This document shows, piece by piece, positions 12,538-56,789 of a DNA stretch of 64,000 bases. The DNA is from Gracilimonas mengyeensis (GTDB lineage: Bacteria > Bacteroidota > Rhodothermia > Balneolales > Balneolaceae), in NCBI RefSeq assembly GCF_900182705.1, contig NZ_FXTP01000012.1, positions 62,001 to 126,000 of the forward strand, read 5' to 3'. The translations under genes were made by a program, and so were the position numbers. Numbering within the stretch: position 1 is the stretch's first letter; every line of letters begins with the position of its first letter. The notes under the pieces were generated by a model. It searched no databases, was not told where the DNA came from, and worked only from the letters and a program-made list of their open reading frames with translations.

Positions 12538-12993
12538 TTAGTTCCTTTTGTAGTAGACAGATTCATTAGGATATGAGGTAGCCAATTCATTCATGTTGTT
12601 CCAAACATCTTTACCTGCAATAGCTACTCCACCTGCATTATCTACTTTTAATCCATCAACAACACCATCAGATACCATTACACCACTTACATATATCATT
12701 GTAGAATCATTATTACTTCTAATTGATGCATTGATTCTATAATCAATCATTGCATCTGTTATAGTTGATGTTTTTAAAAGTAGTAATTCACTATCTGAGT
12801 TATCTATACTAATTCCCTGATCTGTTAAATGTTGTGCAAAACCTCTATAAGCCTCATTTGCAGTTTGATTAACTTTTAAAATGATAGTATCTGCATTTTT
12901 TACCATCTCTTTGGATGGCTCAGTTGATGGAAGTGATGTTGCACATGAGATGAGAAAGAAAGTTAATAGTGCAAGAAGTATGAGCTTTTTCAT
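12538..12993 (-). CDS. Small lipoprotein, cargo of element 1
   Basis: 151 residues. A signal peptide with lipobox FLISC (Cys at about residue 17) predicts a lipid-anchored envelope protein. The mature part is unrecognised, with a glycine-rich turn near VDNAGGVAIAG. It is the last gene before the distal attachment site, with a 58-bp gap from the previous gene. In temperate phages and satellites this position often holds host-modifying genes, so a role in superinfection exclusion is possible but only inference. Confidence 0.6.
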   Translation of the reverse strand: MKKLILLALLTFFLISCATSLPSTEPSKEMVKNADTIILKVNQTANEAYRGFAQHLTDQGISIDNSDSELLLLKTSTITDAMIDYRINASIRSNNDSTMIYVSGVMVSDGVVDGLKVDNAGGVAIAGKDVWNNMNELATSYPNESVYYKRN

Positions 12994-13051
12994 TGTTTCC
13001 CCGATAATTTCATTAAAGTATTATGTTTAAAACATATTAGAAAATTATAGA

Positions 13052-13645
13052 TTATTCAATCTCACTTAAAAATGCATTAAATGCCTGATCCTGATTTTGC
13101 CTGATATACTCAAGCTCTCTGAGGATCTCCTTATATCTCTTTGTAGGTTTGCCTGCATAGTGAGTCTTAAAGTGCTTACTGTAAAGCTCCTCATACAGTT
13201 TATCAGAGCCATTCATGATCTTACAGACCTTATCTATCATTCTGCCTTTTTTAGAGTAAGTCTGGCATTCATACATGGCATTAGGAAAAGCATCTCGATG
13301 CAAAAAGTATTTACCGGCTCCATACAGTTTTCTGCACCGCTTACCGGTATGAGGACAAACAAAATACCAGATCTTACCTATGCCCAAATTTGAGTTACTT
13401 GATGTTAAACTAACATTATAATTGACTTGCTCCTCTTTGTTGTAAGTATAGAAAAAGGTTGCCTGAGGAGTCTCTCTCATATCCACAGAGATACTTATAC
13501 TGCCGACCTCTTGACCTCTTCTGCTCCATGTTAGCTGACCAGATTTAAAGCTGTCTGGCTCAAAATATCCAAACTCTTTGAGCTTGGTTATGGAGATCTG
13601 TTTAACCTCATCCAGTAATGTTGGATATGTGCTATAAGCTGGCAT
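13052..13645 (-). CDS. Uncharacterised element protein with CPHTGKRCRKLY motif
   Basis: 197 residues. Not recognised at family level with confidence. The central region reads WYFVCPHTGKRCRKLY, followed by AMYECQTYSKKG, with Cys pairs that could hold a metal ion. Similar C-P-x-x-G-x-R-C-R-x-L-Y segments occur in hypothetical proteins beside phage or plasmid replication genes. It follows the gene II/X-like gene by 56 bp on the same strand. A nucleic-acid-binding role is plausible but unproven. Confidence 0.5.
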   Translation of the reverse strand: MPAYSTYPTLLDEVKQISITKLKEFGYFEPDSFKSGQLTWSRRGQEVGSISISVDMRETPQATFFYTYNKEEQVNYNVSLTSSNSNLGIGKIWYFVCPHTGKRCRKLYGAGKYFLHRDAFPNAMYECQTYSKKGRMIDKVCKIMNGSDKLYEELYSKHFKTHYAGKPTKRYKEILRELEYIRQNQDQAFNAFLSEIE

Positions 13646-13701
13646 AATGTTAGGTTTTATAAGGTTCTGAAACCTAAATATTTAGAGAACATGCAGTATA
13701 T

Positions 13702-14649
13702 TTACCTGTAATATCTTTTAAGCGCTGAAACTTTACTTTCCAGCTCCTCGATCAATGGAGACGAGTCTGAGGCTGAAAACTTCTTACTCTTGTCTCTAAT
13801 CTCTTTTTTGAGCCTGCTATAATATTCAGGTCTATCAAGAGCATCTTTAGCTCTTAATTCCTCAACCAGATCCACTGCTCCATGCTGACCAATTCTTTTA
13901 ATGGAGAGGAGAGCCATCTGATCCCAAAAATCTTTTGGAGTACTCATATTGTCTGTATCTAAATTGATCTCTGCAAGTTTATGTATTGATTTAAAATCAC
14001 TTACATATCTATCTATTAATTTAATATAAAACTGCTCCTCATACAATTTATAAGCCTTTACCTCTGGCTCTTTAAATTGTTTATGTAACCGGCGCTTATA
14101 TCTGATCTCATACCTCAGAACATGCTTTGAAGTCCATACCTCAGGAATCTCATAACCTTTATTTTTAGCCTCTGCCGGCTTATCATAAAAAAGTTTAGTC
14201 CGATTACCATTTTTGTAGTAAAGGCTCTCAGGTTGAATATATCGCTTATAGTACTGGCTCTCTCCTAAGTATGGATAATATACCTTAGGCTCAAACTGCA
14301 TTATAAAGTTATGAGCAAAGTCTATTCTTGAGACTTGAGCCTCATCTATAGGCAAGTGTAAATCATCTGAGAGCTTCTGTATAGCCTGCTCAGTATCCTT
14401 TCTCCTGAGAGTCTGCATATTATCAGACAGGTAGTATTTGGCTAAACTGCCTTGTATAGAGACTCCTCTATCAGTTACATAAATTCTTAGGTTTTCTTTA
14501 GTACCTGAGAAGTATATCTGATCTGCTTTTTCATGTGCTGTAATATCCTCTAAATAGACAGGTATCTCAGCCAATAGATCAGTATCTCTGACTGAGTCCT
14601 GTCTTACATAGAGTTTTAGTGTATCAAACATATTGACAGAATTTGTCAA
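13702..14649 (-). CDS. Gene II/X-type phage/plasmid replication initiator
   Basis: 315 residues. The opening MFDTLKLYV, the segment GVSIQGSLAKYYLSDN, the conserved AQVSRIDFAHNFIM, and the later VLRYEIRYKRRLHKQF pattern match replication proteins of the gene II/X family, known from filamentous phages and small Bacteroidota elements. Such proteins nick the origin and start rolling-circle replication. The IDFAHNF and YEIRYKRR segments fit the core of that domain; the catalytic tyrosine cannot be assigned by eye. It starts 3 bp after the preceding gene's stop, in one operon. Confidence 0.7.
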   Translation of the reverse strand: MTNSVNMFDTLKLYVRQDSVRDTDLLAEIPVYLEDITAHEKADQIYFSGTKENLRIYVTDRGVSIQGSLAKYYLSDNMQTLRRKDTEQAIQKLSDDLHLPIDEAQVSRIDFAHNFIMQFEPKVYYPYLGESQYYKRYIQPESLYYKNGNRTKLFYDKPAEAKNKGYEIPEVWTSKHVLRYEIRYKRRLHKQFKEPEVKAYKLYEEQFYIKLIDRYVSDFKSIHKLAEINLDTDNMSTPKDFWDQMALLSIKRIGQHGAVDLVEELRAKDALDRPEYYSRLKKEIRDKSKKFSASDSSPLIEELESKVSALKRYYR

Positions 14650-14652
14650 GAC

Positions 14653-15189
14653 TTACAGCTTACTATAGCCATACTGATAAAATGGTTTAGCATCTGCTCT
14701 TAGTTGTTTAATCTGCTCATCCAGCTCTCCATCAATAAGCATCTGATACCAGCTTGAAATAATATTCCTTTGCTCAGGCAGAATGAGCATCTCAATATCA
14801 TCCAGATCTTTATCTGATAGGAATAGGTAAGCATCATTCCTGAATGGATAGAATGGATTTTCAGATCCATCATTTAGCTTTCTCCTGCTATTGGGATAGC
14901 CATAAAATAGCTCTGGATAGTCTAAGTCCTCATTGTATAGGCTTGTAACATTGAGGCTGGATTTAGTGAGGCTCCACTCAGCTATTCTTTTAGAGTCTGC
15001 TGATACAAAATCTCTGGCTGGAGTCTTGTAAACAAACATCTGCTTTTTGTGATTAACAAGAGGAGAGAGTCCTGAGTATTCTCCTGCATATTGAATGCAG
15101 TCCAGCCTCATTTTAGATCTGATATTATTAGCTTTTTTGATCTCCTGAGGTAGTGCTATAAATCTGTAGTAATGGATAGGCTGATTCAT
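14653..15189 (-). CDS. Uncharacterised element protein (178 aa)
   Basis: No family is recognised. The protein is soluble and rich in Tyr, Leu and charged residues (PIHYYRFIALPQEIKKANNIRSK at the start, FYQYGYSKL at the end). It overlaps the HTH gene by 4 bp (ATGA) upstream and lies 3 bp from the replication gene, so it is translationally coupled and probably acts in replication or its control. Confidence 0.55.
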   Translation of the reverse strand: MNQPIHYYRFIALPQEIKKANNIRSKMRLDCIQYAGEYSGLSPLVNHKKQMFVYKTPARDFVSADSKRIAEWSLTKSSLNVTSLYNEDLDYPELFYGYPNSRRKLNDGSENPFYPFRNDAYLFLSDKDLDDIEMLILPEQRNIISSWYQMLIDGELDEQIKQLRADAKPFYQYGYSKL

Positions 15190-15473
15190 GATAGACCTCT
15201 TTCCAATAAGAAGTTTTCAGCCTTATCATCAATCTCATCCTGAGAGACTTTTTTGTTTCTCAGCATCCACTCATCCAGCTCCTCTTTGTCAAAATAGAGC
15301 TTTTTACCAGTTGGCTTGTAGCAAGGTATGCCACCGGTTGAAGTGAGTTTATACAGATGAGATTTTGACAGTCCAGTATAGACTGCTGTCTCATCAAAAT
15401 TGAGTACTGTTTTCTGTGATAGGAGTAGATCCTCAATCCTGCTGAGTCTCTCATCCAGTTCTGTAGTTTTCAT
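15186..15473 (-). CDS. Helix-turn-helix protein, excisionase-like
   Basis: 95 residues. A short N-terminal coiled segment (ELDERLSRIEDLLLSQKT) leads into a MerR/AlpA-type winged HTH at about 22-75: LNFDETAVYTGLSKSHLYKLTSTGGIPCYKPTGKKLYFDKEELDEW. This domain is usual in excisionases and regulators of small Bacteroidota integrative elements. It is separated from the 455-residue gene by 117 bp containing the short palindrome GCGCGC, which may hold the promoter of the replication operon. Confidence 0.8.
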   Translation of the reverse strand: MKTTELDERLSRIEDLLLSQKTVLNFDETAVYTGLSKSHLYKLTSTGGIPCYKPTGKKLYFDKEELDEWMLRNKKVSQDEIDDKAENFLLERGLS

Positions 15474-15590
15474 GGTTCAATTAATTTGAATTAATATTGA
15501 ACCAGCGCGCCGGTACTGTTAATCAGTTAACCTGAGCAAAAGATGAGAAAGGATTGATAACAAAGTAATTGACCAGACCTTTTAAAAACT

Positions 15591-16958
15591 TTACTGTAAA
15601 GGTTTATCAGACAGGCTCTGAATAATACTATCTATTGTTTTAGAACCTCTTGGATCAGAGGAGTACTTCATGTTTTGTGAGTCCTGTTTTATGCTGTCTC
15701 TCTTAAAAGGTTTTCTATGTCTATCCAAAAAATGATCTGTGATGAGCTTAAATTGTCTATCCATAGTATCAATCAGACCAGCCTCAGATAATTTGTTAAA
15801 CAAGTAAATGAGGAGTCTGTTTGTCTTGCTCCATTGAATAGGTTGAGGAGTTTGATCTGCCTGCCTGAAATGCTCTTGTATCAGATCATTAGTATCTCTG
15901 TTTTCAATCAAGCCAACCTTTTTTATGGACTGTAAAAACATTCTGAGAGACTCATCTCCTTTAAGCCAATGGATAGGCTGGATGTTACTTTCTACACTCT
16001 CTTGCTTTGGAGTTGACCTATCAAGTTTTGACTGAAATTTAGGTTTTAATTCAGCAGTTGTATATTCTGCTTTAAGTTGAACAAGTAAACTTCTTAACCT
16101 ATACAATGAATAAAACTCAATGCCATGTGGATCCATTAATCTACTTATGTCAATTGTGTTTTTGAGCATTTCAGACATTTCTTGAGCAAATTGTTCCACA
16201 TTCTTTTTCTGCTCCTCTGTTTGTTCCTTTTGTCTTTTAATCCTCCTTTGTGGTTTAAAGTAATCTGAAACCCCAAAGCTTCTTTGCCCTCTATCAACAT
16301 CACTCAACATGGGTACTTCTTTACCATCTTTTTCATATTCATTAATTTTATTCTGAATTTCCTCATGTGAAAATTTTCCCTCCCAAAGTTCCCTTTCCCA
16401 CCAGAAATAAAAGTCAAAATCTTTGCAGAGCAGTTTAATTTTTACTGGATCAAAATCACCAGTCAATTCTTGAACTCTTGAATAAATTTCTAAGTCTGAC
16501 ATACCACCTTTATGAACTTCAGCAAAAAAACTGTTTGATAATCCCTCTTTGTAACTATCTCCAATTGAATCAGCCATAGTTACATTATCACTGGTTAAAT
16601 ACTCTGCTTTCTTGATGCTTCTATAAATTATGCCACAAAACCTCATTACTGAGTCTTTTTGCCATTCATTTAGATTAGCATCAGAATAATGTTCTTGGAT
16701 CACATAGAAGTTTCTCCACTTATTATCCTCACCAGTACTGATCTTGTACCCTTCAATCAGTTCAGAGTCTGTCTTTCTTTTTTCTAAAATTAGATCAACA
16801 TACTCTTGCAGATAAAAAGAAAAATCAGACAAGATTTGATTTAAAAATCCCTTGGTAACTCCATTCTTTTTGTTCCCTATTTCTTCAATAGTATTAATAA
16901 TGTCAATTGAAGGAACTTTATTCTCAACAATACCCTGAAATAATTCACCTAATTTCAT
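15591..16958 (-). CDS. Uncharacterised element protein (455 aa), C-terminus with two RteC-like repeats
   Basis: No firm family. The N-terminal 230 residues are helical and unrecognised. A charged linker (RRIKRQKEQTEEQKKN) follows. The C-terminal third has two similar units, QPIHWLKGDESLRMFLQSI about 325 and QPIQWSKTNRLLIYLFNKL about 370, each followed by GLI and an aromatic/His-rich helix. This pattern resembles the C-terminal part of RteC-like proteins of Bacteroides mobile elements. It overlaps the integrase gene by 4 bp (ATGA), so the two are translationally coupled, which suggests a role in integration control. Confidence 0.5.
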   Translation of the reverse strand: MKLGELFQGIVENKVPSIDIINTIEEIGNKKNGVTKGFLNQILSDFSFYLQEYVDLILEKRKTDSELIEGYKISTGEDNKWRNFYVIQEHYSDANLNEWQKDSVMRFCGIIYRSIKKAEYLTSDNVTMADSIGDSYKEGLSNSFFAEVHKGGMSDLEIYSRVQELTGDFDPVKIKLLCKDFDFYFWWERELWEGKFSHEEIQNKINEYEKDGKEVPMLSDVDRGQRSFGVSDYFKPQRRIKRQKEQTEEQKKNVEQFAQEMSEMLKNTIDISRLMDPHGIEFYSLYRLRSLLVQLKAEYTTAELKPKFQSKLDRSTPKQESVESNIQPIHWLKGDESLRMFLQSIKKVGLIENRDTNDLIQEHFRQADQTPQPIQWSKTNRLLIYLFNKLSEAGLIDTMDRQFKLITDHFLDRHRKPFKRDSIKQDSQNMKYSSDPRGSKTIDSIIQSLSDKPLQ

Positions 16959-18085
16959 AAGTCAATACTGTTTAATCGGTTGACAGCTTCTTTTCTTTTC
17001 TGATCCACTATATCAGCATAGATCTGAGTAGTCTTGATATTCTTATGCCCTAATAATTTGCTTACAGTATAAATATCTGCTCCATGCTGTAACTGTAGGA
17101 TAGCATAGGTATGTCTTGCACAATGGAATGTGATGTTCTTAGTGATCCCTGCTTCCATCATCCATCTCTGTAGAGCTACATTCATATAGGATGAGTATTT
17201 GAGACCTTTAAAGACTCTTACCTCAGGAGCCTTAGGATCTGTTAAATATTGTTTGGCATTATCAGGTATCTCAACATATTGCAGACCATCTGTTTTCTTT
17301 TGGTGAAATACTACTCTCCAGCCATCCTCATTCTGTTCAATCTCTGACCATGTAAGTTTCTGTATATCAGACCACCTCAGACCGGTAAGACAGGCAAACA
17401 GAAAAGCATTTTTCAGAACAGGATACCGGCACTCCTCTTTAGCTACTGCCTTAAGCTCATCTACAGTTAAATGCTCTCTCTTAGGTGTCTTAATTGAAGG
17501 AGCCTCAACATCACTGGCTGGATTGTGCGAGAGGTATCTTTTTTTGACCGCTTTTTTAAGTCCAGCTCTAAACTTGCTGAAATATGATCCTACAGAGGCA
17601 GAGGCTAAAGGATTGCCATCTGTTTTCTTAACATTTTTCAGATACTCAAGAAACTCCTCACAAAATTTCTGATCTAATCTTTTGAATGGCAGTGAGTCAG
17701 ATCCAACAAAAGACTCTAAATGCTTATAGGTAGAATCCCAATTGTTGTATGTATTCTCATTGCTTTCTCTGTTATCTCTCTGTTTTCTAAAGAAAGCCAT
17801 AAAATCAGCATTACTACTGCCTGACCTTTTGAAGCCATACTGACCATTTTTGATCTCAAGCTCTCTCTTTGCCTTTATGCTTTTAGCAAGCTCCAGAGTC
17901 TCCTTATTAGTTTGTCTCTCTTGCTTAGTCTGAGGATTATCTTTTAAATACAGATCCAGATATTCATAATCTCTGACTGCCTTAGTTTTGCCATCTTCAG
18001 TTTTGACAGTGCCTTTATAGTACTCCAGATAGAGGCTGATCTTGCCTGATTTAGTCTGCTTTCTCTGTCTTAAATGTACCTTCAT
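16955..18085 (-). CDS. Tyrosine recombinase (integrase of element 1)
   Basis: 376 residues: an N-terminal arm-binding domain (MKVHLRQRKQTKSGKISLYLEYYKG-like start), a core-binding SAM-like domain about 90-190, and a catalytic domain about 205-370. Catalytic residues visible: R in TGLRWSDIQKL, H321-x-x-R324 in HCARHTYA, H347 in LGHKN, and nucleophile Y356 in TTQIYADI. It lies next to the mnmE attachment site, with tandem repeats directly in front of its start, as expected for the enzyme that inserted the element. Confidence 0.93.
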   Translation of the reverse strand: MKVHLRQRKQTKSGKISLYLEYYKGTVKTEDGKTKAVRDYEYLDLYLKDNPQTKQERQTNKETLELAKSIKAKRELEIKNGQYGFKRSGSSNADFMAFFRKQRDNRESNENTYNNWDSTYKHLESFVGSDSLPFKRLDQKFCEEFLEYLKNVKKTDGNPLASASVGSYFSKFRAGLKKAVKKRYLSHNPASDVEAPSIKTPKREHLTVDELKAVAKEECRYPVLKNAFLFACLTGLRWSDIQKLTWSEIEQNEDGWRVVFHQKKTDGLQYVEIPDNAKQYLTDPKAPEVRVFKGLKYSSYMNVALQRWMMEAGITKNITFHCARHTYAILQLQHGADIYTVSKLLGHKNIKTTQIYADIVDQKRKEAVNRLNSIDL

Positions 18086-48875: not shown

Positions 48876-48959
48876 GCTCACGTGGCGGAACTGGTAGACG
48901 CGTGCGCTTGAGGGGCGTATGGCCTAACGGCCGTGGAGGTTCGATTCCTCTCGTGAGCA
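48876..48959 (+). tRNA. tRNA-Leu (anticodon GAG)
   Basis: A complete cloverleaf with class II variable arm. Acceptor stem GCTCACG/CGTGAGC, anticodon stem TGCGC/GCGTA around loop TTGAGGG, giving anticodon GAG (reads CUC/CUU). A long variable arm TGGCC...GGCCG and the T-loop TTCGATT are present. CCA is not encoded. Its 3' end (48946-48960) is the integration site of element 2. The same 15 bases recur at 55896-55910, so the tRNA remained intact after insertion. Confidence 0.95.
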
Positions 48960-48960
48960 C
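48946..48960. repeat. Attachment site at tRNA-Leu (left end of element 2)
   Basis: TCCTCTCGTGAGCAC covers the tRNA T-stem 3' strand, acceptor 3' strand, discriminator A and one further base. Identical to 55896-55910. The flanking bases differ on both sides. Confidence 0.9.
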
Positions 48961-49004
48961 TAAATTTATTGTAAGTGTAGTAAAAACAAAGGCTGAAAAA
49001 ACCT

Positions 49005-49023
49005 GTTACCAACTGTGTTACCA
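49005..49023. repeat. Probable arm-type repeat GTTACCAACTGTGTTACCA, left end
   Basis: Matches 18 of 19 bases with 55760-55778 at the other end, in the same orientation, and itself contains two GTTACCA units. It lies 45 bp inside the left attachment core. Confidence 0.55.
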
Positions 49024-49062
49024 CAAATCAGGTACTTTTTAGCTTTTTGAAGGGTGAAGGTG

Positions 49063-49114
49063 AAAAAATATCTTTTTTTTTGAAGTGCCACTTTCACCAC
49101 TTTTACCACTTTTT
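49063..49114 (-). repeat. Iteron block plus A/T tract, left end of element 2
   Basis: An AAAAAATATCTTTTTTTTT tract (49063-49081) is followed by three 9-bp GTGGTnAAA-type iterons on the minus strand (49088-49114). The tract and iterons recur in inverted orientation at 54390-54436, flanking the replication genes. Confidence 0.65.
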
Positions 49115-49155
49115 GATATGAAATTGATATGGTGGTTTATATCACCTGTCAATAT

Positions 49156-49195
49156 TACCTATCTTTTAGCGTGGTGCTACTGATAGGTAGTTTTT
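49156..49195 (+). terminator. Terminator-like hairpin 1 downstream of tRNA-Leu
   Basis: The 8-bp stem TACCTATC/GATAGGTA (49156-49163 and 49182-49189) is followed by GTTTTTG. Reads on the tRNA's strand, against the element's genes. Confidence 0.6.
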
Positions 49196-49203
49196 GTTAT
49201 CAT

Positions 49204-49247
49204 TGAGCCAGTTTCCTTTGTGGTGAAGGTGCTGGCTCACTTTTTTG
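49204..49247 (+). terminator. Terminator-like hairpin 2 downstream of tRNA-Leu
   Basis: The 8-bp stem TGAGCCAG/CTGGCTCA (49204-49211 and 49232-49239) is followed by six T. Together with the preceding hairpin it should stop transcription from the tRNA promoter entering the element. The remaining sequence of the 448-bp stretch 48961-49408 shows no gene. Confidence 0.65.
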
Positions 49248-49351
49248 GCTGATATTCCTCTTTTCTCAAAAATAGCCTTCAGGCCTCAGAAACGGCTTTC
49301 ATATTTCGATTGTCAGGCCTTATCTCTTCCACGCTAATGGTATAGCATTCA

Positions 49352-49384
49352 TAAAAAAACCCCTCAGCTACTAACTGAGAGGCC
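49352..49384 (-). terminator. Intrinsic terminator of the element 2 operon
   Basis: Stem CCTCAG/CTGAG(A)GG with loop CTACTAA, followed on the minus strand by seven T, 25 bp past the last gene's stop. Confidence 0.8.
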
Positions 49385-49408
49385 AGACGAAATAACTAAT
49401 TCAGGATT

Positions 49409-49618
49409 TTATATCGGTGCGTTCACAATTTCTACAAATAGAACGGATCTGCTTTCATTGAATCCCTGCTTTTCAGCATACTTTTCATATTCAGCTTTAT
49501 TTTTGAACTCCAGGCCTTCACCTGTGATAGTTCCATCAACTGCCTGAGTGAATACTTTTAGTTTTGGCTGTGGCAACTCTTGGCGCTCAATCTCTTTTAA
49601 TCTCTTATTCAGATTCAT
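49409..49618 (-). CDS. Small element protein (69 aa)
   Basis: Unrecognised. It begins MNLNKRLKEIERQELPQP, sharing the N-terminal pattern NKRL-x-x-(I/L)E with the next two small genes. The middle (EGLEFKNKAEYEKYAEKQGF) looks like a small alpha/beta fold. The start overlaps the preceding gene by 14 bp. Last gene of the operon. Confidence 0.6.
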   Translation of the reverse strand: MNLNKRLKEIERQELPQPKLKVFTQAVDGTITGEGLEFKNKAEYEKYAEKQGFNESRSVLFVEIVNAPI

Positions 49619-49979
49619 TGATATGGTATCCTTTATTGATTAAAAATTTATTGAAGGCCGGGAAAGATCCTGTTATTGAATGGCCTAATTGATCAACCCT
49701 TCCTTTTTTGTGCTGATATTCTTTAAAAGCATTAAATACCGATCTCACATTTAACGGTTCTGCAATATCGTATTGCTTTAAAAACTCAACCCGTGCATCT
49801 CTTTTGGCTTTATTATCCAGCTCAATCAAGTCTTTAAACTCTTCTTTTGAGTTTTCTTTACTGATCAAATAAACAAGTCGCTCCAGTTCCTTATTTGTAA
49901 GACAATTAAAAAAATAATCTGAAGGCGCTTCAGCTTCCAACTTTGCGAGCCTGTTATTGATCTTCATATTTATTTTCAT
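49605..49979 (-). CDS. Small element protein (124 aa)
   Basis: Unrecognised, mostly helical. The start MKINMKINNRLAKLEAEAP offers two ATG codons. The second (49967) aligns better with the shared small-protein N-terminus NxRLxKLExxxP. The C-terminal half (RSVFNAFKEYQHKKGRVDQ) is basic. It overlaps both neighbours and is probably translationally coupled. Confidence 0.6.
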   Translation of the reverse strand: MKINMKINNRLAKLEAEAPSDYFFNCLTNKELERLVYLISKENSKEEFKDLIELDNKAKRDARVEFLKQYDIAEPLNVRSVFNAFKEYQHKKGRVDQLGHSITGSFPAFNKFLINKGYHINESE

Positions 49980-50118
49980 TGTATAGGTTCATAAATTCTT
50001 CATTCTCTTCAGTGCCTGGAGTGCTTTCTCTCTTCAATAATTCACCATAGGAAGGATATTCTTTCTCAGGTGTTAAGGCTTCCAGCTTGTTCAATCGTTT
50101 ATCTACTGATTTTATCAT
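49954..50118 (-). CDS. Small element protein (54 aa)
   Basis: Read directly from the sequence: it begins MIKSVDKRLNKLEALTPEKE and ends NENKYEDQ. Its ATG overlaps the stop of the preceding 83-residue gene as ATGA, strong evidence for coupling. It carries the same DKRLNKLExxTP start pattern as its neighbours. Very acidic C-terminal half. Function unknown. Confidence 0.55.
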   Translation of the reverse strand: MIKSVDKRLNKLEALTPEKEYPSYGELLKRESTPGTEENEEFMNLYNENKYEDQ

Positions 50119-50366
50119 CCTACTTTCCTCATTCTGTTATTTTCCAGAGCCTCAATCCGTTCAATGATCTCATGTGTTTCAATCAATCCTTTATACTTTC
50201 CAACTAAGCCAGAGAGTGCATTCACTGCCTGGATCTTTTGATTCTCTGTATAGCTATCACTTAAGATGATTTTTTCCATTGTTTTCACTGCATCGGTCAT
50301 CTTCAGCATAAGATCATCAACTGTGAGCCTCTTCCTGGATCGCTTTTGTTTGTAAGATTTTGACAT
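50115..50366 (-). CDS. Small basic element protein (83 aa)
   Basis: Unrecognised. Basic N-terminus (MSKSYKQKRSRKRLTVDDLM), then a helical segment with a regular hydrophobic pattern (LMLKMTDAVKTMEKIIL, AVNALSGLVGKYKGLIETHEIIERIEALE) suggesting a coiled coil. Nucleic acid binding, or a small-terminase-like role, is possible but not shown. Its end is coupled to the 54-residue gene. Confidence 0.55.
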   Translation of the reverse strand: MSKSYKQKRSRKRLTVDDLMLKMTDAVKTMEKIILSDSYTENQKIQAVNALSGLVGKYKGLIETHEIIERIEALENNRMRKVG

Positions 50367-50556
50367 TTATTTCAGGCTTAAAAAATAGGTTAACATTAAA
50401 GTAAATAGGCTTTTAGTGAAGATACCCCCCCTCCCCTCAGTGGTTAAGGGATGAAGGGATCATCTAACCTTATTTTCACTTTTTAAAGAGCTTCTGGAAC
50501 TCTTCTCTTCCATGCTCAGATATAAAATCCAGCTTCTCTTTTATCAGTGTATTTCA

Positions 50557-50748
50557 TTAGTCAGTTACCTTATCAGTTAAAATTTCATCTAAAGGGAACT
50601 CAGGATCTGCCATCATATCTTCCACTAAGAAGAGTATATCCTGGTAAGCGTGCCTCAGTCCTTTATTGAAGTCGGTTTCACGTTCAATTGCTTCTTTTCT
50701 CATTTGTATAAATTTGGCAATATCTGCCAGCTTATCTTCTGTTTTCAT
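50557..50748 (-). CDS. Small acidic element protein (63 aa)
   Basis: I choose the ATG at 50748 (MKTEDKLADIAKFI) over the one 9 bp upstream because it overlaps the stop of the DUF6371-like gene as ATGA. Helical, with an acidic end (DMMADPEFPLDEILTD). No family recognised. The 190 bp after it up to the next gene contain no convincing gene. Confidence 0.6.
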   Translation of the reverse strand: MKTEDKLADIAKFIQMRKEAIERETDFNKGLRHAYQDILFLVEDMMADPEFPLDEILTDKVTD

Positions 50749-51740
50749 GTGGTGCATTGTTTGGTGTTTATGTTATCCCATTCTTTTGGGTAGCCTCTTT
50801 CATCAAATATCTCTCCAGTGAATGGATTCCAGCCATGTGGTGAAAAATCTCTCAGATCGTAATTGATTAAATAATCAGCGATATCAAATCCTGAATGCTT
50901 CTCAGGTGCATTCTCTTCCAATAGCGTGGAAACTTTGATCTCAGCAATATCTTTGAGCTCTTCAGCCTTTGCCTTCCATTGATCATAAACCCCGATATCA
51001 GGGAATAATGTGATTGATCTTCCAGCAAGTGGCTTCATCTTATATTCATTAATTCCATGAAGCTGGCCAGAGGCAATCCAATGAAACTGTTTAAGGTATT
51101 GGCTGGCAATGAGTGCGGTTTTTTCACTTTCTACAATAGCCACTGGCTTGCTGTCATCAACTATGTGAAGGCCGTAAAAACATTGAACAAGCTCAAAGGC
51201 TTCCAGGTGTCCTGTCCTCTGCAATTTCGAGTGTATCCAGTCCTGGCTGTATCCCTCTTTGATCCTGTGGCCATCGGTATCATACGCCATCATTTTGCCT
51301 GATCGTATCTTTCCTTGCTGGTCTATCTGCCAAAAAATTGCCCAACCATCTTTGGAAGTTCCTACTTTGTAAAGCTGTGCGGTTTCAGTGGCACGTTCCC
51401 AGCTCCAGCCCTTTAATGTGGCCATCCAGGTGATCAGTGTATTCCTTTCATAATTGCCCAGAGAACGCTTTAAATATCCTTTTGGCAATGTACTGGCTTT
51501 AGGCTCTTTTCGAGGCTCAGAACTCTTATAAAGTATGTTAGCAAGCTCAATACCATCGGCTTGGCGTGGTGGTTTGTGATAGCCACAACTTTGCTCTCTG
51601 TCGCATCTTCCAACATCTTCAGGTAGATAGTTTCCATTATCCTGGGCAACGTATCTCACAAATCTTTTACGCTCACATGAAGGACAAAGAAACTTCTTTG
51701 ATCCTGGATCTAATTGATATTTATACTCAGTGAGTGCCAT
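50745..51740 (-). CDS. DUF6371-like primase-type protein with zinc finger and Toprim domain
   Basis: 331 residues. The N-terminal zinc-binding region has C19-P-x-C22, then C46-DREQS-C52-x-x-H55, matching the KFLCPSCERKRFVRY and RCDREQSCGYHKPP pattern of DUF6371 proteins of Bacteroidota mobile elements. A Toprim-like part follows about 185-290 (KPVAIVESEKTALIAS, ITLFPDIGVYDQW), as in bacterial primases. The primer-synthesising core typical of DnaG is not obvious, so it may be a primase relative or accessory protein working with the adjacent helicase. It overlaps the helicase gene by 14 bp. Confidence 0.75.
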   Translation of the reverse strand: MALTEYKYQLDPGSKKFLCPSCERKRFVRYVAQDNGNYLPEDVGRCDREQSCGYHKPPRQADGIELANILYKSSEPRKEPKASTLPKGYLKRSLGNYERNTLITWMATLKGWSWERATETAQLYKVGTSKDGWAIFWQIDQQGKIRSGKMMAYDTDGHRIKEGYSQDWIHSKLQRTGHLEAFELVQCFYGLHIVDDSKPVAIVESEKTALIASQYLKQFHWIASGQLHGINEYKMKPLAGRSITLFPDIGVYDQWKAKAEELKDIAEIKVSTLLEENAPEKHSGFDIADYLINYDLRDFSPHGWNPFTGEIFDERGYPKEWDNINTKQCTT

Positions 51741-53238
51741 TCACATGATGTTTTTTCAGGTGAATAACTTTTCCCACGTTTTTGGTGGAACTGAAATATC
51801 CGAGAGCTTCCAATCTCTTCTGAAAGTTCTTTCTCGATACTGGCCTGAGGCCTTCACTGATTGCCCATTCCCGATAATTAAGGTATATCGGTTTAGCCTT
51901 TACCCAATGTTCTGGATCAGGCTGATAGTTCATTTCATCCACAAAGGAAGCCACTGAATCAGCTTCTTTTCGGAACTCTCTGAGAGCCTTATCTGAGGCC
52001 TCACAATGTGAAAATCCCTGCTGTTCAATAAGTCTTTCGAGTCCTTCCAGTACCCAATTGAATACTCCAGGCAATTCATTGGAAATGATCTTCTCAGCCA
52101 GTTTTGGATCTCTTCTCTCTGGCTCGATATACTCTTCAAAGGGAATGATCAGGAACCGCTCAAAAAAGGCATCTGTATGCTCAACATCGGCTGGCAGTGT
52201 ATTGGTATTGAAAGCGAATTTACAGACGTTAGTAAGCTGAAAAGGCTCTTTATAAGGAAGCCTGGCTTCAATAGGTTCACCTGAAGCAAGCTGTTTAAAG
52301 GTATTGCTCTGGAGTCGATCCCCAACATCTGAAGCCCAATTAATCAACTTATTCACCAACTTTGCCCGATAATAACCTGAATCATCGGTGAGGCTTTGAA
52401 GGCCGTAATAACTCATATTATTTTCTCCCAGCATGGCCTTAATGATATCAAACATCACGCTTTTGCCATTTCTTCCAGATCCGTATAAAAATAAAACCTT
52501 TTCGAGCTTCAAGTTTCGCAAAAATATGTACCCCATGAACTCAGAGAGAACTTGCTGGCTCTCCAGGTCTGGCAACACTTCATTTAGATACCTCTTAAAA
52601 ATTGGTGCTGAAGCCTCTGGAGTGTATTCAAAGGGCAATTGATAAGTGAGGAAGTCATCTGTATTGAAGGCTCTCAATTTTTGCCCTTCAGGCGTTATCT
52701 CAAAGGTTCCGTTTCTCAGGTTGATCAATACGGTATCTTCATCAATCTCTGGCTCTGGAAGGTGTGCGCTTGCTTCAAATTGCTTGAATAGTTTGTCCTT
52801 AAACTCATAGTGGCGTGAGTCGAATTTAGGAACCCCCTGCTTTTCAGCCACTTTCCCCAGAAAGGAAGCCAGTTCTTTTTCAGCCAGGACATGCCAAAAT
52901 TCTCCATTAAAAACGTAATAATAAGCCAGGCGCTGGCATAAATCCCACTGGTTCGCTCTGGCAACTTCGAGAAGTTTTTCAATGGAAATGATTAAATAAT
53001 GCTTCTGGAAGAGCTTATATGAATCAATCTTCTTTTGTATATCGGAAAGCTGATCAGGATCATCAATTTCCTTTTGTTTGGCTCTAAGCTTCTCAATTCC
53101 AGGAAAGGCTTCAGCATAAAAATCCACTTCCTCAATTTGAGCCAGTAGGTGTTTTAGCACAAAGGTTGCATCTCTTAGAACTGGCTTAGAGCTGGCCAGC
53201 TTTTCAGCTTCATTAATTATTTCGTCTGGTGATATCAT
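51727..53238 (-). CDS. Phage/plasmid-type SF3 primase-helicase (D5/P4 family)
   Basis: 503 residues. A D5-N-like helical domain lies at about 90-230 (FNGEFWHVLAEKELASFLGKV). The superfamily 3 helicase has Walker A GSGRNGKS at 253-260, a B-type segment NKLINWASDVGD, and sensor motif C CKFAFNTNTLP. A C-terminal winged-helix (AKPIYLNYREWAISEGLRPVSRKNFQKRLEALGYFSS) completes the P4-type arrangement. It unwinds the element's origin. The first ~90 residues lack a recognisable primase active site, so primase activity may come from the neighbouring Toprim protein. Confidence 0.88.
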   Translation of the reverse strand: MISPDEIINEAEKLASSKPVLRDATFVLKHLLAQIEEVDFYAEAFPGIEKLRAKQKEIDDPDQLSDIQKKIDSYKLFQKHYLIISIEKLLEVARANQWDLCQRLAYYYVFNGEFWHVLAEKELASFLGKVAEKQGVPKFDSRHYEFKDKLFKQFEASAHLPEPEIDEDTVLINLRNGTFEITPEGQKLRAFNTDDFLTYQLPFEYTPEASAPIFKRYLNEVLPDLESQQVLSEFMGYIFLRNLKLEKVLFLYGSGRNGKSVMFDIIKAMLGENNMSYYGLQSLTDDSGYYRAKLVNKLINWASDVGDRLQSNTFKQLASGEPIEARLPYKEPFQLTNVCKFAFNTNTLPADVEHTDAFFERFLIIPFEEYIEPERRDPKLAEKIISNELPGVFNWVLEGLERLIEQQGFSHCEASDKALREFRKEADSVASFVDEMNYQPDPEHWVKAKPIYLNYREWAISEGLRPVSRKNFQKRLEALGYFSSTKNVGKVIHLKKHHVNGTH

Positions 53239-53264
53239 TATTAATGTAGTTTTTGTTATCGGTT

Positions 53265-53555
53265 TTATTTTTCAGGCTGAATGTGGTGCGCCTGCAAAAA
53301 TTCCAGTATCCCTTTTCGTGGATAAAGGATCTTTCTGCCATGTTTGGAGTAGGGAATTTGGTCAGTATCCCTCAGATTCTGTATTGATCTGGAACTCCAG
53401 CCAGTCAGATCCATCAACTCTTCTTTGGTTAGATAAGGCTTTGCTGTGGCCTCAGCAATTAGATCTGGAAGAGTTTCACTTATTTTCTTTTCAAAGAGCT
53501 TGCTGAAGATTTTCTCCAGCTGTATTTCTGTTGTTACAATTACGGATTCATTCAT
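53265..53555 (-). CDS. Helix-turn-helix protein, excisionase/regulator
   Basis: 96 residues. The C-terminal half is an AlpA/MerR-type winged HTH: PYLTKEELMDLTGWSSRSIQNLRDTDQIPYSKHGRKILYPRKGILEF. The N-terminal ~45 residues form a short helical dimer-like segment (IQLEKIFSKLFEKKISETLPDLIAEA). A tandem 11-bp repeat lies in the short gap upstream, a likely binding site. It precedes the helicase gene by 26 bp, so it may regulate replication as well as excision. Confidence 0.8.
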   Translation of the reverse strand: MNESVIVTTEIQLEKIFSKLFEKKISETLPDLIAEATAKPYLTKEELMDLTGWSSRSIQNLRDTDQIPYSKHGRKILYPRKGILEFLQAHHIQPEK

Positions 53556-53625
53556 ATTGCTCCAGGTGGTGTTTCAATTATCTGGAGCTTAAACTAAAGG
53601 CAATATTAACCTATCACATCAACTC

Positions 53626-53647
53626 AAGTCTTGAATAAGTCTTGAAT
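53626..53647. repeat. Tandem 11-bp repeat AAGTCTTGAAT x2
   Basis: Two exact adjacent copies between the 236-residue gene and the HTH gene. A related CACTTGAATT follows. Suited to a repressor operator controlling the HTH-helicase operon. Confidence 0.55.
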
Positions 53648-53655
53648 CACTTGAA

Positions 53656-54366
53656 TTATTTAACATCTGAAAGCATTTGCTCAGCTTCATTAAACTTTTC
53701 GATCCAATTTCTGTATGTATTATTTGAGAGTTTAGTCATTCCAACTTCTTTGATATACACTTCAATATTTAACCCTGGCGACTCTTTTTTAATTAGAGCA
53801 TACTTAGCCATAAAATTCCGTGCGTGCTCTTTATGCTTTTTTTGAACCTTCCCGCCAGAAGTAGCAACATCAATGATCTTTTTGGTATCTGTATCAATAA
53901 ACTCACTTTCTATCTCTTCCAGGGACTTCAAATATGCCTTTTGAACGTGCATCCACCATAAATCACTTCTTTCAAAACTCCCATCTTCAGACTTAGCCTC
54001 AATAATTACGGCCGTATCTACTCCAGATTTAAACTTTGAATATTCATGTTTTATATGAGTATATCTTTGGCCATCAATGTGAGATAGCGCTATCCTGTTA
54101 TCAATAAAATTTTGCCTTTCTTTTGGATGATTCGTAATCCATTCTTTCACATTTTGGATCTCAATTTCAATCCACTCATGTTTATTTGTAATTTTATTTT
54201 TCAACCTTTCCAGCATCATCTCAACTGCCATATTCCAGGCCTCTTTTTTTAATTCCTGAATCTTCATCCATTCAAGTTCTGAGCCTTTATCGGTGGCAAT
54301 GGCCTTCCCTATCACTAAAGGATCGTAACCTTCTGTTAGCCATATTTTGTAATCAATCTTCGTCAT
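53656..54366 (-). CDS. Uncharacterised element protein (236 aa)
   Basis: No family recognised. Soluble, helical and Lys/Glu-rich, with a tryptophan-containing middle (SFERSDLWWMHVQKAYLKSLEEIESEF). A C-terminal HTH-like end, SNNTYRNWIEKFNEAEQM, is possible. It sits between the integrase-proximal iterons and the HTH gene, so it could be an iteron-binding initiator or a regulator. This is positional inference only. Confidence 0.5.
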   Translation of the reverse strand: MTKIDYKIWLTEGYDPLVIGKAIATDKGSELEWMKIQELKKEAWNMAVEMMLERLKNKITNKHEWIEIEIQNVKEWITNHPKERQNFIDNRIALSHIDGQRYTHIKHEYSKFKSGVDTAVIIEAKSEDGSFERSDLWWMHVQKAYLKSLEEIESEFIDTDTKKIIDVATSGGKVQKKHKEHARNFMAKYALIKKESPGLNIEVYIKEVGMTKLSNNTYRNWIEKFNEAEQMLSDVK

Positions 54367-54389
54367 TTTGGTAGTTTTTTAGTGAAAAA

Positions 54390-54470
54390 GTGGTGAAAGT
54401 GGTAAAAGTGGTGGTCTAAAAAAAAAGATATTTTTTTGCTTTGCCTTAAAAGTGGTAAAAGTGGTGGTCT
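54390..54470 (+). repeat. Iteron array GTGGTnAAA plus A/T tract, integrase side
   Basis: Two blocks of 9-bp iterons (54390-54416 and 54452-54469) contain an exact 22-base direct repeat (54396-54417 and 54449-54470). An A9-GATA-T6 tract at 54418-54436 is the exact reverse complement of 49063-49081. Non-coding. Iterons of this length are the usual initiator-binding signature of replication origins. Confidence 0.65.
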
Positions 54471-54481
54471 GAAAAAACATA

Positions 54482-55732
54482 TTATTTTTGCCCTCTGGAG
54501 TTAACAAGTCGTTCAAGTTCTGAATCTGCATCATATTCGCTCAGATCTTCCAGGTATTGCTCAGTGGTGGCTCTCTTACTGTGAGCAAGTGCTTTGCCTA
54601 TGAAGTCCAGGCTCAATCCTTTAGCCTTTGCCCAACGTGCGAAAGAGTGCCTTGAAATATGAAAGCTGATATTAGTATCAATCCCAGCCATCTTCTGAAG
54701 ATCCTTCAACTTTTCATTTACAATGGCATTCTGTGAAGAGGCCTTTTTCTTATATCCTGTAACGGTCATTTTCTTATCAGGAAGTATTGGAAAGATGAAG
54801 TCCTGGTCTGTATCGGTTTCATCCTTATAATAGCTCAGGATCTCTTTAGCTGGCTCTGTGAGAAGTATATCCTTTTGTTTATCTGTCTTTCCCATTGAAT
54901 AGGTCAATCTTCCATCTTTGATATGCTTCCACTTTAGAAAGGTCAGATCAGTGAACCTGATCCCTGCATTCCAAAAAGAAAACATGAAGTAGTTTCTCAC
55001 ATGCCAGATCTGTGATCCCTCTTCCAGCTTCAGATCTTCAATACTCTGGATCTGTTCAATGGATAGAGCCTTTTTCTTTGTATCCACTTTTTTGGTTTGT
55101 TCATAAACAGAGCTATCAAAAGGATTTTCTTTCATTAGTCCTTCTTTCATGGCCTTTTTAAATACTGCTTTCAGCTTCACCATGTTTGAAACAATAGTAT
55201 TGGGATGATTGCCCTCTTTGATAGATCCCTCTTCCAGCTTCTTATCCTTTGCCAGGTATTCTTGGAAGTCATTCAGCATGTGAGGCGTAACTTCATCAAA
55301 AGTGATATTCCCAGCATATTCTTTAAACTTCTCAGCCACTACCTTTGTCTGTTTATGTGGATGAAACTTTCCTTCATCATTGAGTTTCTCAGCGTGCTGG
55401 AGTGCATAATCATATATCTTCACTGAGTCAGTATCATCATTGAGCTTTTCAACGATCTCTTTTCTGCCAATACCTTCATTTTCATCAATGATTCTGTTTA
55501 TCTCATTCCAGATCCTAAATATTTTATTGTTCCAGGCATCAGCTGAAGGATGATCTTTGATCCAGTTCCTGTTTATGAAGTTCCCTTTCTTATTCCACAT
55601 TGATTTTTCAATATAGATCTCAGTCGAATACAGAGAGTAAGATCTGTTTTGTGTGATTCTCAGATAAACTGGATAAAGGCCATCCGCTGTTTTTCTTCTC
55701 TTCAGTAGATAAGGTGTGATAGTAGTTTTCAT
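54482..55732 (-). CDS. Tyrosine recombinase (integrase of element 2)
   Basis: 416 residues. N-terminal arm-binding domain (MKTTITPYLLKRRKTADGL start), SAM-like core-binding domain about 105-200, catalytic domain about 215-405. Catalytic residues: R in NAGIRFTDLTFL, H358-x-x-R361 in HISRHSFAR, H384 in ALAHSKR, nucleophile Y393 in TTEQYLED. Bacteroidota-type integrase of the phage/transposon group. It lies at the right end of the element, 163 bp from the attachment core, with a GTTACCA repeat in front of its start. Confidence 0.93.
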   Translation of the reverse strand: MKTTITPYLLKRRKTADGLYPVYLRITQNRSYSLYSTEIYIEKSMWNKKGNFINRNWIKDHPSADAWNNKIFRIWNEINRIIDENEGIGRKEIVEKLNDDTDSVKIYDYALQHAEKLNDEGKFHPHKQTKVVAEKFKEYAGNITFDEVTPHMLNDFQEYLAKDKKLEEGSIKEGNHPNTIVSNMVKLKAVFKKAMKEGLMKENPFDSSVYEQTKKVDTKKKALSIEQIQSIEDLKLEEGSQIWHVRNYFMFSFWNAGIRFTDLTFLKWKHIKDGRLTYSMGKTDKQKDILLTEPAKEILSYYKDETDTDQDFIFPILPDKKMTVTGYKKKASSQNAIVNEKLKDLQKMAGIDTNISFHISRHSFARWAKAKGLSLDFIGKALAHSKRATTEQYLEDLSEYDADSELERLVNSRGQK

Positions 55733-55759
55733 ATCGGTGGTGTGTGGTGAATATCAGTA

Positions 55760-55778
55760 GTTACCAACTTTGTTACCA
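55760..55778. repeat. Probable arm-type repeat GTTACCAACTTTGTTACCA, right end
   Basis: Differs by one base from 49005-49023 and has the same orientation. It lies 28 bp upstream of the integrase start and 118 bp from the right attachment core. Confidence 0.55.
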
Positions 55779-55895
55779 ACAATATAGTGTATTTATTGCC
55801 CTTTATGAAAACATTTAAGAACAGAAAAGCTGTTTATTAATATTAATAGGCTATAAATGAAAGGAAAGCTAATCATCTATACTCAGTACTTTGAG

Positions 55896-55910
55896 TCCTC
55901 TCGTGAGCAC
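55896..55910. repeat. Attachment site, right end of element 2
   Basis: TCCTCTCGTGAGCAC, identical to the tRNA-Leu 3' end. The bases upstream do not continue the tRNA, so this is a 3'-end fragment left by integration. Confidence 0.9.
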
Positions 55911-55919
55911 ATAAAAATT

Positions 55920-55957
55920 AAGCCAAGTAACTGTTAATTAGTTGCTTGGCTTTTTTT
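55920..55957 (+). terminator. Original terminator of tRNA-Leu, separated by element 2
   Basis: A 13-bp stem, AAGCCAAGTAACT with AGTTGCTTGGCTT (one T-G pair), followed by T7. It reads in the tRNA's direction and begins 9 bp past the right attachment core. Without the element it would lie just behind tRNA-Leu. Confidence 0.85.
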
Positions 55958-55976: not shown

Positions 55977-56297
55977 TTACTTGTTGAAGTGAAATCTGAT
56001 TTCCTTAATAATTTGATCTGGATCCTGTCGATTGTCAGTTATAGTGATTACCTCAATTTCATTTTCTTCCTCCAGAATCTGGTAGTAGAATGAGCTTTGC
56101 GGAGTGATCACACACCAAAAAATGTCTTCAAAATCCTCCGTACTGGGATTGCTTTCAGGATGTCTGGAAATTTGGGCGAATTTTAGCTTTAGTTTTTTTA
56201 AAAACCTCTCTTTGGACTTTCTTCCCCATTCTTGCTCAATATAAATAAGAAGTTTAGAAAGCTTATATTCTGAAAGTGGCGATAAAAATACCTTCAC
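55977..56297 (-). CDS. ParE/RelE-family toxin
   Basis: 106 residues with the ParE-like start FLSPLSEYKLSKLLIYIEQEWGRKSKERFLKKLKLKFAQISRHP and the beta strands WCVITPQSSFYYQI and IEVITITDNRQDP, with the conserved ending RQDP as in HigB/ParE-type toxins. It follows the antitoxin gene by 4 bp. The family inhibits DNA gyrase or ribosome-bound mRNA; which of these is not clear from sequence. It lies just outside the right end of element 2, so it is host-borne now. Confidence 0.8.
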   Translation of the reverse strand: MKVFLSPLSEYKLSKLLIYIEQEWGRKSKERFLKKLKLKFAQISRHPESNPSTEDFEDIFWCVITPQSSFYYQILEEENEIEVITITDNRQDPDQIIKEIRFHFNK

Positions 56298-56301
56298 ATT
56301 C

Positions 56302-56520
56302 TTACGATACTTTTTTCAGAAAGTCTTCAAAAGAAATTCGCTCTCCCCGATTCAGTTGTTCAATACCAATTTTTATCTCTTCTTTTTCATGCTGGGTCAA
56401 GCTTTTTCTGAACTTACTACTTTCATCCAGTATCATTTCATGAATTCTGTTGATGAGTTTTGGATCTTCCAATTCTAATATCAATTTGGCGATCTCAATT
56501 TTTGAAGTTTGTGAATCCAT
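56302..56520 (-). CDS. Antitoxin partner of the ParE-like toxin
   Basis: I use the ATG at 56520 (72 residues, MDSQTSKIEIAKLILELEDPKL) because the upstream in-frame sequence is hydrophobic and lacks a ribosome site. The helical protein ends EQLNRGERISFEDFLKKVS, a common antitoxin C-terminus that wraps the toxin. It precedes the toxin gene, the normal order for type II modules. Confidence 0.72.
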   Translation of the reverse strand: MDSQTSKIEIAKLILELEDPKLINRIHEMILDESSKFRKSLTQHEKEEIKIGIEQLNRGERISFEDFLKKVS

Positions 56521-56789
56521 GGTCTTAATATTTGTGAACGTATATAATATAAAAAACGAAAATTGTGGTTGTGATGCTATGTAAACTTTCATTAATGATG
56601 TGTTATTAACAAAGCTACTGTCTTATTCTAATTCCACCTACTTCATTAGAATAAGGAAATCCATAGTCTAACAGACTGGAATAAGGCCCATAAACACTTT
56701 TCTACATTAACGGAAATCAGCTTTTGCATTTCTAAAAATTTTTAGTACTATTGTTTTAGTATTTTAATAAACTTAGTTAAGACAACATC

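Follow-up and report, generated by a model that had tools for sequence, protein, structure and literature searches.

For the phage-inducible chromosomal minimalist islands (PICMIs) of Vibrionaceae, the available part of the published description gives the gene order integrase, X, helix-turn-helix (HTH) gene and DUF5906 primase, an AlpA model that admits PF05930 or PF12728, a primase criterion comprising DUF5906 (PF19263) and DUF3987 (PF13148), and virulent phages as helpers (PMC10803314). Phage-inducible chromosomal islands (PICIs) are described, in the portion of the source at hand, with an integrase, a replication module, a regulator, sometimes terS, and two sets of origin iterons (PMC6092414). 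We analysed a 64,000-nucleotide stretch of the Gracilimonas mengyeensis genome (NZ_FXTP01000012.1, positions 62,001 to 126,000; hereafter the window), in which a preliminary description had proposed a P4/PICI-like satellite inserted in tRNA-Leu(GAG). Our favoured reading of this sequence, held with moderate confidence, is that the element, of about 6.95 kb, is a helper-dependent phage satellite with a PICMI-like layout. It would belong to a family for which the literature searched gave no report in Balneolota; the earlier remark was that satellites are little described in this phylum. The reading is supported by a replication gene pair that is also that of complete temperate phages, by the PICMI layout of integrase, X, HTH_17 protein and DUF5906 primase (as given in the available part of PMC10803314), by paired iterons in all four clade elements tested, and by a module of small genes (small83 and KRLxKLE-type, or KRL, genes) that also occurs in tRNA-bounded elements whose replication genes differ. 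A satellite is better argued from the slot after the replication genes, which holds TerS-type genes in two relatives (L041 and L032) and DUF5681 in a third (L043; L and G numbers are our handles for loci and genomes).

The element is a site-specifically integrated mobile element, with the following target and boundaries:

48876-48960, plus strand: tRNA-Leu(GAG), the integration target (ARAGORN)
48946-48960: attL core, the left 15-bp repeat TCCTCTCGTGAGCAC (exact repeat)
55896-55910: attR core, the right 15-bp repeat TCCTCTCGTGAGCAC (exact repeat)

The 15-bp repeat that had been reported to bound 6.95 kb is indeed perfect. It consists of the last 15 bases of tRNA-Leu(GAG), and the circle expected on excision, measured from repeat to repeat, is 6,950 bp. 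When the bases of the 15 kb that follow were shuffled 2000 times, this 15-mer never arose. GC content is 0.384 in the element and 0.430 in the rest of the window. A query made of the upstream flank and the tRNA gene found matches in 10 of 10 genomes of the genus, its own included, and in the other nine the upstream gene and the tRNA were matched at separate places. All five tRNA-Leu(GAG) loci of the same genus that were inspected (L106-L110) were empty, with an apparent stem-loop and T-run at most about 10 nt after the tRNA (by eye, unfolded). A similar terminator-like hairpin lies just past attR in the window, at about 55920-55957, as expected if the element entered between the tRNA and its terminator. 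At the level of sequence, the repeats and the empty sites prove that insertion was site-specific at the 3′ end of tRNA-Leu(GAG). Just outside attR, at 55977-56592, two adjoining small genes (106 and 96 residues) have by eye the look of a RelE/ParE-type toxin-antitoxin pair.

Ten genes, all on the minus strand and with several stop/start overlaps, run from attR to attL; a 25-residue frame is listed in its place among them:

54482-55732, minus strand: tyrosine integrase, 416 residues (PF00589, PF13102, PF17293)
53656-54366, minus strand: protein without assigned family, 236 residues (open reading frame; Pfam, PHROGs and NCBIfam all without a match at E ≤ 0.001)
53265-53555, minus strand: HTH_17 protein, 96 residues (PF12728; phrog_66, excisionase and transcriptional regulator, 5.7e-6)
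51727-53238, minus strand: D5/SF3 (superfamily 3) helicase of the phage/plasmid primase P4 family, 503 residues (PF19263, PF08706; TIGR01613, 179.9 bits)
50745-51740, minus strand: DUF6371 protein with zinc ribbon (Zn_ribbon_16), primase-like, 331 residues (PF19898, PF21957)
50557-50757, minus strand: small protein, 66 residues (relatives in L033 and L034)
50476-50553, minus strand: 25-residue frame like the end of a gene of about 78 residues in the sisters (by eye)
50115-50366, minus strand: small83, a helical-hairpin protein of 83 residues (relatives in 12 of 296 genomes; AlphaFold2 model)
49954-50118, minus strand: KRLxKLE-type small protein, 54 residues (motif scan; relative in L034)
49605-49979, minus strand: KRLxKLE-type small protein, 124 residues (motif scan)
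49409-49618, minus strand: KRLxKLE-type small protein, 69 residues (motif scan; weak relative in L034)

Pfam matches above the cut-offs were obtained for the integrase (PF00589, 64 bits against a cut-off of 27.1), the HTH_17 protein (PF12728, 37.8 bits against 27), the DUF5906/D5_N helicase (PF19263, 67.6 bits) and the DUF6371 protein with its Zn_ribbon_16. Together with the open reading frames, these calls agree with the integrase, HTH, SF3 helicase, DUF6371 protein and small genes first noted. The HTH_17 protein is a probable excision factor or regulator. A KRLxKLE-like motif stands at the start of the 54-, 124- and 69-residue proteins (motif scan), and the 124-residue protein has a weak match (3.4e-4) to a PHROG of unassigned function. 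Searches of the ten proteins against Pfam, PHROGs and NCBIfam at E ≤ 0.001 recognised no virion or relaxase family, upholding the earlier observation that virion and conjugation genes are lacking; terminase large subunit, portal, capsid and tail gave no match, nor did any phage structural or lytic gene.

The preliminary description had called this the gene set of known phage satellites. The satellite reading is the one we favour, but the same genes occur in phages and mobilizable elements. The helicase profile found 16 loci in IMG/VR, nine of which were inspected by eye. In L111 the order integrase, X, HTH, helicase and DUF6371 is followed by an SPP1 portal, Terminase_2, Terminase_6N and a minor tail protein; early module and portal are the same in L112; L119 has a Phage_portal match; and L115 is phage-like by eye, with two presumed terminase genes without a Pfam match. 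Helicase identity to the window is 47-48% for L111, L112 and L115. In Bacteroides, the Tn4555-like element of CP103138 and the NZ_CP045613 insert carry relatives of the integrase and the DUF6371 protein together with a mobilization gene or MobV; neither has a match to the window's D5 helicase, and other helicase genes are there instead. The idea that the whole backbone is that of the Bacteroides mobilizable elements was rejected, as only the integrase and DUF6371 match there and the helicase does not. Judged by these homologies, the replication pair is common to temperate phages, and DUF6371 to phages and mobilizable elements. Because D5 helicase and DUF6371 occur in complete temperate phages, and integrase and DUF6371 in mobilizable elements, the gene set alone is not diagnostic and was discarded as proof of a satellite.

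Relatives of the helicase were found in 31 of the 296 genomes of the phylum (E ≤ 1e-10, own genome included), and 20 of these loci (L032-L051) were inspected, mostly by eye. Sister elements are inserted in tRNA-Leu(GAG) (L035), tRNA-Val (L034) and tRNA-Leu(CAG) (L032), with perfect repeats of 15-21 bp. The slot after the replication genes varies between relatives. It contains small83 in the window, L034 and L035; genome G171 also has small83, its element being apparently split over two contigs (L033 and L065). The slot of L032 contains an HGG protein that matches PHROG terminase small subunits (4.8e-8) and has no Pfam match, and this element also has a protein with a carbohydrate-binding match below the cut-off. 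L041 has Terminase_4 in the slot (2.2e-18; phrog_83, 1.8e-25), and L043 has DUF5681. No large terminase was recognised among the open reading frames inspected in L032, L041 and L043, the L041 terminase has no relatives in IMG/VR, and the partner proteins of L032 (180 residues) and L043 (240 residues) show no significant similarity. Two KRL-like proteins were seen in L047 and a similar one in L045. In a helicase tree of 28 rows L032 groups with the small83 elements (100/99) and is, inside that group, sister to the window (100/98). L041 and L043 also pair (100/100) and differ in their slot genes. Because L032 branches inside the small83 group, the modules look exchanged, and the simplest reading of the tree is that L032 swapped the small83/KRL module for the HGG module. 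Both L032 (12908-14514) and L066 (10582-11884) have, by eye and with weak or no family matches, a fibre-type/carbohydrate-binding gene paired with an Ntn-hydrolase-like gene.

At E ≤ 0.01, small83 has relatives in 12 of the 296 genomes, own included. Eight of the twelve come from the family (seven, with its own) or order (one) of the window, and in each of these eight, one or more KRL-type proteins come after small83 (by motif scan in seven, by eye in L066). L067 and L068 are weaker members, and G192 and G021 also have matches. The matches listed in a scan of named genomes (at least five) are Rhodohalobacter sulfatireducens, R. halophilus, Fodinibius salsisoli and two Balneolaceae metagenome-assembled genomes, all Balneolota (G203, G235, G282, G092 and G171, already among the genomes counted above). 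The small83/KRL module is found again in L062, L063, L064 and L066, tRNA-bounded elements that have different replication genes and whose repeats measure from 18 to at least 60 bp. The integrases of L062, L063 and L066 have no match to that of the window, and in L064 both the integrase (29%) and the HTH protein (36%) are related to those of the window. L064 has a BT4734/PriCT_2 primase, L063 by eye a similar one, and L062 and L066 have other small proteins in place of the window's replication genes. A C-terminal tag of the NPFTGEIFDERGYP type is present on the DUF6371 proteins of the window and of L032-L035, and also on the primases of L063 and L064; these seven matches were the only ones in a scan of the retained loci. 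Such sharing would suit a motif for docking or a joint at which modules recombined. The tag lies at 50745-50830 in the window, at about 11474 in L063 and at about 10188 in L064.

AlphaFold2, given six aligned sequences, modelled small83 as two helices (residues 16-35 and 41-82; mean pLDDT 77, pTM 0.47). On the grounds of position and module exchange only, small83 is a candidate packaging-redirection protein. We put forward more tentatively, at somewhat less than even confidence, that small83 and the KRLxKLE proteins are an undescribed transferable phage-hijacking module, a TerS substitute that would redirect helper packaging and define a new Balneolota satellite family: it appears exchanged with TerS-type genes on one backbone, sits on at least three replication modules, and goes with the NPFTGEIFDERGYP-type tag on two kinds of primase.

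Repeats inside the element provide candidate cis sites:

49063-49114: iteron site, an AT-rich block and three 9-nt iterons (52-nt inverted repeat with 54385-54436)
54385-54489: inverted second iteron site in two copies, 54385-54436 and 54449-54489 (inverted repeat)
49004-49028: candidate integrase arm site GTTACCAACTGTGTTACCA (direct repeat with the right-end copy, 55760-55783)
55759-55783: candidate integrase arm site GTTACCAACTTTGTTACCA (direct repeat with the left-end copy)

The arms of the 52-nt inverted repeat (49063-49114 and 54385-54436) are 87% complementary, and each iteron copy is made of an AT-rich block and 9-nt iterons. A pair test, with one arm required within the 700 bp adjoining the tRNA and eight shuffles as comparison, detected the inverted pair in four of four elements of the same helicase clade (scores of 69 in the window, 54 in L032, 77 in L034 and 61 in L035; best shuffle 25-31) and in none of four elements with other replication genes (L062, L063, L064 and L066, 23-28; shuffles 26-29). 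When ten other segments were searched against themselves (score ≥ 36), a pair came up in L041, at both ends of the helicase gene, and none in nine segments that included the defence-type L036-L040 and the two Bacteroides elements. By these scores the inverted iteron pair marks the window's helicase clade and not all D5-helicase elements. The site at 49063-49114 is probably the replication origin. P4 has an origin plus a second cis site, crr, and we infer that the inverted array near the integrase gene is a second, crr-like site. GTTACCA pairs near both ends of the element, with counterparts in L032 and L035, probably serve the integrase as arm sites.

Several results weigh against a satellite. 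The integrase and DUF6371 are also found in mobilizable elements, and in L036-L040, which lie in or near tRNA-Arg(TCG) (a tRNA-Arg was found in four of the five), the same helicase and DUF6371 are followed by varying defence-type genes and not by TerS (by eye). The window is without the coiled-coil gene (about 180-190 residues) and the gene of about 78 residues that are placed before small83 in sisters (L035, L063, L066), and BLAST gave no match between the latter and the 25-residue frame at 50476-50553; having lost such genes, the element may have been streamlined or have decayed in part. For small83, Foldseek against PDB and BFVD returned nothing at E ≤ 0.001, hhalign comparisons with three TerS-type proteins and with the partner protein of L032 (single-sequence templates) gave probabilities below 1%, the PHROG scan gave no terminase homology, and neither phage records (best E values of 5 and 2) nor IMG/VR yielded a relative. 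Three of the first 24 viral Foldseek rows were named terminase small subunit, at E 0.37-0.72. A homologous TerS is unsupported by the PHROG scan, Foldseek and hhalign, and was set aside.

The own genome also gave no match to Terminase_6N, Phage_portal or TerL_ATPase, these being the families searched, so that the helper prophage which the preliminary description had suggested seeking was not recognised; PF03432 relaxase and P-loop_TraG gave no match either. The portal, TerL_ATPase and TraG profiles were silent in a Bacteroides control genome as well and could miss the types of this group. For phrog_2 there were two short matches, at 3.4e-7 and 4.5e-6, to frames 607 and 347 residues long; these were taken for other ATPases and rejected as helper terminases. 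Among nine carriers, Terminase_6N matched in G171 only. Because none was recognised in the own genome, the likeliest helper would be an infecting phage, as with the virulent helpers published for PICMIs. A second cluster in the own genome, L051 (G000:C5:89000-108999), has the order integrase, 304-residue protein, HTH and D5-type primase, with identities to the window of 31% (integrase), 42% (HTH) and 28% (helicase); it was discarded as a helper, its surroundings being by eye type I restriction-modification/defence genes with no prophage look. The window itself has a second low-GC segment at 12538-18085. It encodes a tyrosine integrase, an HTH protein and, by eye, a replication-initiator-like protein of 315 residues, and is probably a further small integrative element.

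An integrative mobilizable element that lacks a relaxase (iOriT), a class documented in the available part of PMC11389934, would excise and replicate and would depend for transfer on a conjugative element, whose relaxase would nick its origin of transfer and whose channel it would use. We consider this unlikely, although the Bacteroides relatives of the integrase and DUF6371 keep company with a mobilization gene or MobV, and the small83 genomes G211 and G282 carry PF03432 relaxases elsewhere. No relaxase matched in the element; PF03432 gave no match in its own genome and was found in just 4 of the 22 carriers searched; P-loop_TraG matched in none of nine genomes, with the control caveat given above; the two Bacteroides elements lack a D5 helicase match; and TerS-type genes in the slot would be unexpected. 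We likewise think it improbable that the mobile backbone carries an island for defence or cargo, whose small genes would target phages or other elements and whose transfer would be infrequent or take other routes. Small83 and the KRL proteins are without known function, and relatives do carry defence-type genes: the Pfam tally of 75 proteins from 18 loci (25 of 74 families listed, locus unmapped; the PHROG and PADLOC tallies are likewise the best rows of longer lists) includes type I restriction-modification (three members), JetD_C, AbiEi and EcoO109I. However, PADLOC matched just two of the element's ten proteins, helicase and HTH, and those marginally (E 0.0028 and 0.0066), and other relatives have TerS-type genes in the slot. 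An immobile temperate-phage remnant that lost its morphogenesis genes is very doubtful: the early module is that of complete phages, and the 25-residue frame and missing coiled-coil gene suggest deletion, but the integrase, helicase and DUF6371 genes are uninterrupted and near full length against the sisters, and sisters in other tRNA genes keep the small-gene module and perfect att repeats, so the small form spreads as such.

If the element is a helper-dependent satellite, the HTH_17 protein would switch the integrase to excision and/or turn on the single leftward gene set, and the circle would replicate from the iteron array beside attL, aided by the inverted array near the integrase gene, with the helicase binding both arrays. 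Small83 and the KRLxKLE proteins, in the place of the terminase small subunits of relatives, would divert the packaging machinery of the helper phage, and the element would leave in helper virions. Small phage satellites would then extend to a phylum for which the literature searched has no such report; one integration/replication core would be common to temperate phages, satellite-like elements and defence-type islands, the module behind the replication genes would decide the lifestyle, and a candidate new packaging-redirection protein would be open to testing.

The gene-content comparison with PICI and P4 elements proposed earlier was carried out, and by profile set and gene order the element is closest to PICMIs. 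As far as the available text of PMC10803314 goes, the likeness lies in the integrase, one gene, HTH protein and DUF5906 primase and in the small size and the lack of capsid-remodelling genes; PF00589, PF12728 and PF19263 matched, and PF13148 and PF05930 did not (Pfam, element proteins). Unlike PICMIs, which lie beside fis, the element is in tRNA-Leu, belongs to another phylum, and carries DUF6371 and the small83/KRL module. With PICIs, as described in the consulted part of PMC6092414, it shares the integrase, replication module and regulator in order and two iteron sets, and no phage structural or lytic genes were recognised among its ten proteins; the gene order and the lack of structural genes fit the PICI label, which also comprises an att site that prophages never occupy, but 6,950 bp (against 12-15 kb) does not, and there is no terS homologue by sequence. 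The P4-family helicase (TIGR01613) and the tRNA target recall P4-like satellites, but the markers psu, delta, sid and epsilon named in the available part of PMC8628076 gave no match: Psu, Ogr and epsilon had none in Pfam at E ≤ 1, no Pfam model being used for sid, and the P4-like label did not hold. The temperate phages L111 and L112 share the early module from integrase to DUF6371 and differ in having a portal and, in L111, also TerS, TerL and tail genes, whereas the Bacteroides CP103138 and NZ_CP045613 elements differ in their mobilization protein or MobV and in the lack of a D5 helicase match. The element stands outside the P4-like, PICI and PICMI families as defined and is most like a PICMI with an added module.

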